From NCBI RefSeq assembly GCF_900108505.1, contig NZ_FNWU01000001.1, positions 310,001 to 374,000 on the forward strand: a stretch of 64,000 nt of DNA. Direction: 5' to 3'. Source of the stretch: Halopenitus malekzadehii. GTDB taxonomy: Archaea; Halobacteriota; Halobacteria; Halobacteriales; Haloferacaceae. Position 1 is the stretch's first letter; each line of letters begins with the position of its first letter. The notes under the pieces are model-generated. The model made no database searches. It was not told where the DNA came from and saw only the letters and a list, made by a program, of their open reading frames with translations. Shown in pieces: positions 13,447 through 14,627 of this stretch. The position numbers and the translations under genes were made by a program.

Positions 13447-14136
13447 ATGCACGTCACCGTCGAGGTCATCGGCGAGGGGACCCACGAGCTCGCCTGCGAG
13501 CCCGAGGATACCTACGCCGATCTGATCCGGTCGGTGGGCTATAGCCCCCAGGAGGCCGCTGCGCTCGTCGACGGGTCGCCGGTTCCCGAGGACCGCGCCG
13601 TCGACGCCGAGCGCGTGACGGTCCTCCGACTCATCAAGGGCGGGTCCGGGCGCGGCTACGTGCCCGAGACGGTCGACTTCGAGGGCGCGAACGTCGGTCC
13701 GGGACCGGACCCGTTCGCCCTGTCCGACCTCGAAACGGATATTGCGGTCCTGCTGTTCCACCGCGACCACCTCTGTGGGAACTGTCGCACGCAGGTCAAG
13801 GCCGTCGTCTCGAACCACGACTCGCTCCGCGAGGCCGGCGTCGAGGCGGTGTCGATCCTGCCGGAGGACCGCGAGCGGGCTGCCGAGTGGGTGGCGGAGT
13901 ATGACGTTCCCTACCCCTTCATCGCGGACCCGGAGACCGAGATCGCGAGCCAGTACGGCCAGTCGCGCCGATTCGGCCCGATCGGCCGGCGGATCGACCT
14001 GATCGGCCGGATGCCCGAGGTCGTGCTCGTCGATCTGCGCCGGGAGCCCGAAGTTCTCTGGCGGTACACCGGGTCCCACCCTGGCGACCGACCGGGGATC
14101 GATGCGATCCTCGAGGAGGCGCGGAAGTTCGCGTGA
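13447..14136 (+). CDS. SAMP2-like ubiquitin-like modifier fused in frame to a redoxin
   Basis: A 229-residue protein. Residues 1-66 are a complete SAMP2-type beta-grasp modifier: 'MHVTVEVIGEGTHEL', 'LVDGSPVPEDRAV' and the end 'VTVLRLIKGG' at exactly position 66, where free SAMP2 stops. The reading frame continues without a stop ('SGRGY') into a thioredoxin-fold redoxin: 'PETVDFEGANVGPG', strand 'DIAVLLFHRDHL', dithiol 'CGNC' at about residues 114-117, and 'VPYPFIADPETEIAS'. Free SAMP2 attaches through its C-terminal Gly-Gly, so activity would need cleavage after Gly66, for example by a JAMM-type protease. An internal GTG at 13663 could alternatively start a free redoxin. Position 58 is Thr, whereas SAMP2 of Haloferax, as I recall, has the chain-forming Lys58. 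The downstream GNAT gene overlaps by 4 bp. Confidence 0.85.
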   Translation: MHVTVEVIGEGTHELACEPEDTYADLIRSVGYSPQEAAALVDGSPVPEDRAVDAERVTVLRLIKGGSGRGYVPETVDFEGANVGPGPDPFALSDLETDIAVLLFHRDHLCGNCRTQVKAVVSNHDSLREAGVEAVSILPEDRERAAEWVAEYDVPYPFIADPETEIASQYGQSRRFGPIGRRIDLIGRMPEVVLVDLRREPEVLWRYTGSHPGDRPGIDAILEEARKFA

Positions 14137-14627
14137 GGGTCCCCTCGAGCGACCCGCCAGCGGGGATCGCGATCCGGCCCGCCGAGGCGGGCGACGCCGT
14201 CGATGTCCTCCGAGTTCTCGAGGGTGCCTTGCTCGAGGTCGACGCCGAGACACTCCGGTCCGGGATCGAGGCCGGCCGCGTCCTCCTTGCGGAGACTGAT
14301 CCTGAGTCCGGGAACGAACGAGCCCGGACCGTCGTCGGGGCACTCTCCCTGGTGCCCTGCGACGAACCGTCTCGGAGTGCGTGCGGCGACCGACTTCACG
14401 TCGACGCCGTGGCCGTCACGCGCCACCGGCGTGAGGCCGGAATCGGCTCCGCGCTCGTGCGGGCCGCGATCGACCTGGCTGCGGCACGCGAGGTGACCCG
14501 ACTCACCGCCGCCTTCGAGAGCGATCTCCGTGAGTTCTACGCCGACCTCGGGTTCCGGATCGAGCCGGTCGAGGGAGCCGACCGGCTGCGTGGCGTCGTC
14601 GACGTCGGAGCGATCGATCGACGCTAA
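14133..14627 (+). CDS. GNAT-family N-acetyltransferase
   Basis: A 164-residue acetyltransferase. 'IAIRPAEAGDAVDVLRVLEG' begins the fold; 'VDAVAVTRHRREAGIGSALV' is the acetyl-CoA pyrophosphate-binding motif A (R/Q-x-x-G-x-G/A, here RREAGIGSA); 'LREFYADLGFRIEP' is motif B. The substrate is unknown. It begins with GTG overlapping the redoxin-fusion stop (GTGA), so the two are translationally coupled. That pairing makes a protein or modifier substrate conceivable, but nothing proves it. Confidence 0.83.
   Translation: MRVPSSDPPAGIAIRPAEAGDAVDVLRVLEGALLEVDAETLRSGIEAGRVLLAETDPESGNERARTVVGALSLVPCDEPSRSACGDRLHVDAVAVTRHRREAGIGSALVRAAIDLAAAREVTRLTAAFESDLREFYADLGFRIEPVEGADRLRGVVDVGAIDRR

Follow-up and report, generated by a model that had tools for sequence, protein, structure and literature searches.

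A SAMP2–redoxin fusion gene in Halopenitus malekzadehii that probably encodes a linear ubiquitin-like precursor

The window analysed here, a stretch of 64,000 nucleotides from the haloarchaeon Halopenitus malekzadehii (contig NZ_FNWU01000001.1, positions 310,001 to 374,000), carries at 13447–14136 on the + strand a single open frame of 229 amino acids (ATG 13447 to TGA 14134–14136), in which the ubiquitin-like modifier SAMP2 (residues 1–66) continues in frame into a CxxC redoxin with the peroxiredoxin fold. We conclude that this gene probably encodes a linear ubiquitin-like precursor that is cut after Gly66, most likely by a JAMM desampylase, to give a conjugation-ready SAMP2 and a redoxin. 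In the proposed route, the ribosome would make both proteins in a single chain, which would then be cut after Gly66, most likely by the genome's own JAMM/MPN+ desampylase. UbaA would adenylate the freed Gly-Gly end, so that SAMP2 could serve NcsA in tRNA thiolation and be conjugated to lysines, and the redoxin would be set free in an amount equal to that of SAMP2. The fusion would have arisen when an old SAMP2–redoxin–GNAT operon lost the stop codon of SAMP2, an event that would have been repeated with whichever gene stood next.

The full-length SAMP2 domain (13447–13644, + strand), which a sequence-only reading of the window had placed at residues 1–66, was borne out by the NCBIfam equivalog NF041919 (103.6 bits, cut-off 70, profile positions 1–66 of 66), by Pfam PF21965 (97.8 bits, cut-off 27), and by matches to the Haloferax SAMP2 structures 2l32 and 4hrs in the PDB (E = 2e-20 and 1e-19, respectively). 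The domain ends with Leu-Ile-Lys-Gly-Gly (LIKGG, residues 62–66), in which Gly65-Gly66 (13639–13644, +) is the end for conjugation and thiocarboxylation, and the predicted cut lies between Gly66 and Ser67. While the Haloferax SAMP2 chain ends at Gly-Gly, the Halopenitus chain runs 163 residues past Gly66, making the Gly-Gly internal, and the extension starts immediately with Ser67. A species-variable linker of ten residues (67–76, SGRGYVPETV; 13645–13674, +) leads to the redoxin domain (residues 77–229; 13675–14133, +). The AlphaFold2 model contained two confidently folded domains, and residues 64–69 (KGGSGR) were the sole segment with a predicted local distance difference test score (pLDDT) below 50; a flexible and exposed junction is therefore probable. 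Position 58 is Thr instead of the Lys58 of Haloferax SAMP2, as had been pointed out earlier, but relatives have T, R, Q, or K at this site, and the substitution was consequently discarded as a special trait.

The fusion was confirmed as real and not a sequencing error, because the frame is the same in all three assemblies of the genus and three separate gains of the fused state were found in the wider sample. The frame was held without indels or a stop codon after Gly66 in three of three Halopenitus genomes, one of which belongs to H. persicus, and the protein of the window had an amino acid identity of 92% with that of H. persicus (over all 229 residues) and of 91% with that of the third species. 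No single-base difference splits the gene within the genus. In more distant relatives SAMP2 and the redoxin are encoded separately, which a gene fusion would predict. Purifying selection acts on both halves in Halopenitus, with ratios of nonsynonymous to synonymous substitution rates (dN/dS) of about 0.20 for SAMP2 and about 0.12 for the redoxin, which are rough values based on few changes, and the GC content by codon position was equal in the two halves.

An artefact or a translational separation would instead require a missed stop codon, or translation of the redoxin from an internal start and some other means of ending SAMP2. The sequence-only reading had allowed for such a start at an in-frame GTG, which does exist in the window, although at 13660–13662 (Val72, +) and not at 13663. 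H. persicus and the third species both carry GCG (Ala) at the matching codon, and the linkers of these two species and of two further fused genomes (G062 and G170) contain no ATG, GTG, or TTG. The internal redoxin start was rejected on these grounds, and with the frame common to three assemblies and the three separate gains in the redoxin tree, we regard this explanation as highly improbable.

The continuation into a CxxC redoxin was also correctly recognized from the sequence. Residues 88–173 matched Pfam AhpC-TSA (PF00578) with 60.9 bits at a cut-off of 26, while the best specific model, the SelL-related NF040769, reached 53.7 bits and thus stayed below its cut-off of 120. The best Foldseek matches were peroxiredoxins of the Bcp/AhpC kind (E = 6e-10), and profile searches of the fusion protein gave no MoaE match in the C-terminal partner. 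AhpC/TSA peroxiredoxins typically have the peroxidatic motif PxxxT/SxxC. This motif is missing from the Halopenitus redoxin, which reads FHRDHLCGNC, with the CxxC (Cys110-Gly-Asn-Cys113; 13774–13785, +) in its place. The CxxC is kept in the non-fused relatives of the redoxin, two of which, from loci with adjacent genes, read CTNC.

SAMP2 is known to work through its C-terminal glycine, which is adenylated by UbaA, with sulfur passed to tRNA together with NcsA and the modifier conjugated to lysines; thiolation of tRNA-Lys requires SAMP2, UbaA, and NcsA, and HvJAMM1 of Haloferax hydrolyses both linear and isopeptide linkages of SAMP1–3 (PMC4048286). The genome of the window encodes UbaA (NF047750, 514 bits, cut-off 450), a desampylase (NF041370, 152 bits, cut-off 130) with the JAMM motif HSHP..PSETD, and an NcsA-family protein (TIGR00269). 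NcsA and at least one JAMM protein above the cut-off were likewise present in all 27 other fused genomes tested. Judged by its sequence, the desampylase is a plausible cognate processing protease, and the presence of these genes predicts that Halopenitus SAMP2 would be activated by UbaA and take part in sampylation and in sulfur transfer with NcsA. A stand-alone SAMP2 was not found in a whole-genome search of the window genome, where the fusion is the only copy, as it is in each of the three Halopenitus genomes, and the fused genera had one SAMP2 match per genome. Since SAMP2 is always extended past Gly-Gly in these genomes, it could not serve UbaA and NcsA or conjugation without cleavage.

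The other ubiquitin-like proteins of the window genome are of the SAMP1, MoaD, and ThiS types. Those that bear Gly-Gly (L155, L156, and L157, on contigs C20, C21, and C26) all extend past it: a SAMP1 does so by a single Ser (GGS), a SAMP1-type protein by about 100 residues, and a ThiS-family protein by a tail of 21.

The distribution of the fusion was surveyed in 171 genomes of the window's family and 392 of the order. A total of 146 SAMP2 loci were read, in a sample that is weighted to the family of the window and contains close relatives as well; the counts are therefore not haloarchaea-wide frequencies. A frequent gene order is SAMP2, then redoxin, then GNAT; SAMP2 and the redoxin are neighbours in many genera, and in some of these the SAMP2 stop codon abuts or overlaps the redoxin start. 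SAMP2 ended at Gly-Gly in 50 loci, had a short tail in 59, and was fused to the redoxin in 23 and to the GNAT in 14, which means that residues follow Gly-Gly in 96 of the 146 loci, with whole domains in 37 of these. In-frame SAMP2–redoxin fusions were present in all three genomes of Halopenitus, in one of g15, a sister genus of Halopenitus, in one of g28, another genus of the same family, and in 17 of the 18 genomes of g44, which belongs to another family. The sole g44 genome without the fusion (G244, locus L178) has a SAMP2 ending in GG-Ala-Val and a separate neighbouring redoxin.

A maximum-likelihood tree of 63 redoxins placed three separate changes to the fused state on well-supported branches, one for Halopenitus together with g15, one for g28, and one for g44. 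A single ancient SAMP2–redoxin fusion was rejected, since the branches of this tree force three gains; the same pattern could in principle reflect one gain and two losses, but this would need many more losses among the genera with adjacent genes. SAMP2 has thus been fused to the redoxin at least three times, and in-frame GNAT fusions occur as well, in every one of the 12 Haloplanus genomes read (L128–L132 and L180–L186) and in two Halorubrum-like genomes (L147 and L191), with Gly-Gly kept in all of these loci. In the window, the GNAT acetyltransferase gene (14133–14627, +; PF00583, 40.2 bits), which is adjacent in most loci and is the gene fused to SAMP2 in Haloplanus, starts with the GTG at 14133 and overlaps the fusion stop codon by 4 bp (GTGA), in agreement with the coupling described earlier. 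Such repeated loss of a stop codon would be tolerable only if trimming after Gly-Gly were routine.

Further variation was observed at the SAMP2 end. Most Halorubrum-like SAMP2 proteins (L006–L032, L187–L190, and others) have a tail rich in Gly, Asp, Ser, Ala, and Thr that runs about 2–21 amino acids past Gly-Gly, often into the start of the next gene. The residue after Gly-Gly was Ser or Ala in 73 of the 96 tailed or fused loci, which possibly reflects a protease preference or shared ancestry; as a protease signature this count is inflated by close relatives, and it stays a hint. A locus from another family (L085, genome G292) has a SAMP2–redoxin frame with a scrambled SAMP2 end lacking Gly-Gly, probably owing to a frameshift through decay or assembly error, and this frame-damaged copy was not counted as an intact fusion.

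Gly-Gly was kept in 145 of the 146 loci and in 36 of the 37 fusions, with the damaged L085 as the only exception. In g44, SAMP2 was under strong constraint (dN/dS 0.09), the linker was nearly free from the very next residue (0.62), and the redoxin was intermediate (0.35). A drop in constraint right after Gly-Gly is expected if Gly-Gly is the end that functions and what follows is removed. These results bear on the idea that the fusion is permanent and never cut, in which case SAMP2 would be a fixed N-terminal tag or a docking or localisation domain with a C-terminus that no longer conjugates or carries sulfur. Ubiquitin-like domains do occur in fusion proteins, such as the conserved Ubl-Cgi121 of Thaumarchaea (PMC2948915), and the frame is conserved within Halopenitus. 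However, a fixed domain needs no internal Gly-Gly, yet every intact fusion in several independent lineages has kept it, the switch from near-invariant to nearly free sequence falls exactly after it, no second SAMP2 exists to serve NcsA, and linear SAMP linkages are known JAMM substrates. A permanent fusion is therefore unlikely in our view. The sequence-only reading had left open whether the chain is cleaved or permanently tagged; cleavage is favoured because the fusion is the sole SAMP2, UbaA and NcsA are present, and Gly-Gly is kept in the intact independent fusions.

The nature of the partner suggested another possibility, in which cleavage is partial and regulated, so that the uncut chain is a built-in "urmylated" peroxiredoxin, the cut chain supplies SAMP2, and oxidation shifts the balance, comparable to Urm1–Ahp1 in yeast. 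Urm1 is conjugated to Ahp1 in yeast, as is Sulfolobus Urm1 when placed there (PMC12645042), and the targets of Saccharolobus Urm1 include two peroxiredoxins (PMC12625751). In Haloferax, a Δsamp2 strain is hypersensitive to oxidants, and hypochlorite raises the level of SAMP2 conjugates (PMC5587910). SAMP2 also adjoins the redoxin gene in many genera. By analogy, a functional link between SAMP2 and the redoxin is plausible, because Urm1-type modifiers conjugate to peroxiredoxins and Haloferax without samp2 is sensitive to oxidants. Nevertheless, a GNAT can take the place of the redoxin in this architecture, the Halopenitus redoxin is not Ahp1 itself, and one cysteine of the CxxC is gone from 7 of the 16 fused g44 redoxins (SxxC in six, CxxS in one; L163, L171, L172, L173, L176, L177, and L179), leaving regulated partial cleavage, in our estimate, an even weaker candidate than the permanent fusion. 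The fusion itself should not be over-read, since SAMP2 is simply joined to whatever follows it in the operon, whether redoxin or GNAT, and cysteines have been lost in g44; stop-codon loss tolerated through routine trimming would account for the pattern without a special role of the partner.

Several points weigh against the linear precursor reading. The cleavage is something we infer from the genomes, and the cutting protease could be other than the JAMM desampylase. In Haloferax, ubaA and samp2 are non-essential under standard conditions (PMC12625751), so that an uncut fusion would not be lethal. The same paper states that Urm1 is produced in mature form with no cleavage. The variable partner may also mean that the fusion itself has no regulatory meaning. 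On balance, we nonetheless lean, with somewhat less assurance than for the Halopenitus gene, toward a wider proposal: in many haloarchaeal lineages SAMP2 would be made solely as a precursor, with a short tail or a redoxin or GNAT fusion, and its ubiquitin-style maturation by a JAMM cut would be obligatory before tRNA thiolation and sampylation.

The likeness to eukaryotic ubiquitin–ribosomal protein precursors, which the earlier reading had drawn, is sound insofar as both have an N-terminal modifier and an unrelated C-terminal protein joined directly after Gly-Gly. The systems are otherwise different, with a JAMM candidate in place of a eukaryotic-type deubiquitinase, and to our knowledge SAMPs have an E1 only and no E2 or E3. 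Closer precedents are the JAMM-cut MoaD–MoaE and the Caldiarchaeum precursors. Compared with SAMP2 of Haloferax volcanii (HVO_0202), a Urm1-like modifier and sulfur carrier, the Halopenitus protein has the same full domain and a genome with the same partners, UbaA, NcsA, and a JAMM desampylase. MoaD–MoaE (for example Deinococcus DR2607, cut by DR0402) is likewise a beta-grasp sulfur carrier attached via its Gly-Gly end to a pathway partner and is activated by JAMM cleavage that frees the C-terminal Gly (PMC8832034), whereas the Halopenitus modifier is SAMP2, the partner is a redoxin (a GNAT in others), and the cleavage is predicted. The ubiquitin and SAMP precursors of C. subterraneum also have residues after Gly-Gly, which are removed by the JAMM-family enzymes CsRpn11 and CsJAMM, the SAMP precursors being cut by CsJAMM (PMC6043591), but the extension of CsUb is a nine-residue peptide, while that of Halopenitus is a whole conserved domain. 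Thaumarchaeal Ubl-Cgi121 is likewise an archaeal ubiquitin-like protein fused to another protein, although both the modifier and the partner differ. In yeast Urm1–Ahp1, a Urm1-type modifier is also held covalently on a protein of the peroxiredoxin fold, there by post-translational lysine conjugation and in Halopenitus by a genetically encoded peptide bond.

Precursors of ubiquitin-like proteins, their processing by JAMM enzymes, and fusions with MoaE and Cgi121 are thus already known (PMC8832034, PMC2948915). For SAMP2–redoxin or SAMP2–GNAT fusions or widespread SAMP2 tails, we found no report in the open-access literature, with subscription papers mostly outside the search, and the main text of a 2024 survey of archaeal fusion families mentions neither SAMP nor ubiquitin.

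If the wider proposal is true, the JAMM protease would have an activating role besides its reversing one, and the product of the downstream operon gene would be stoichiometric with the modifier. The sampled loci suggest that many haloarchaeal SAMP2 genes encode precursors; if so, a processing step may have escaped notice because Haloferax happens to lack the tail. This would contrast with the model haloarchaeal SAMP2, which ends at Gly-Gly. It would equally contrast with Urm1, which is described as mature without cleavage (PMC12625751). The stop-codon losses that have repeatedly extended SAMP2 into the following gene of the operon provide a natural series of examples for the origin of ubiquitin-type fusion precursors. 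Finally, the SAMP2–redoxin operon and its fusions add evidence on a genome scale that Urm1-type modifiers may have been linked to peroxiredoxin-like proteins, as with yeast Ahp1, already in the archaea.
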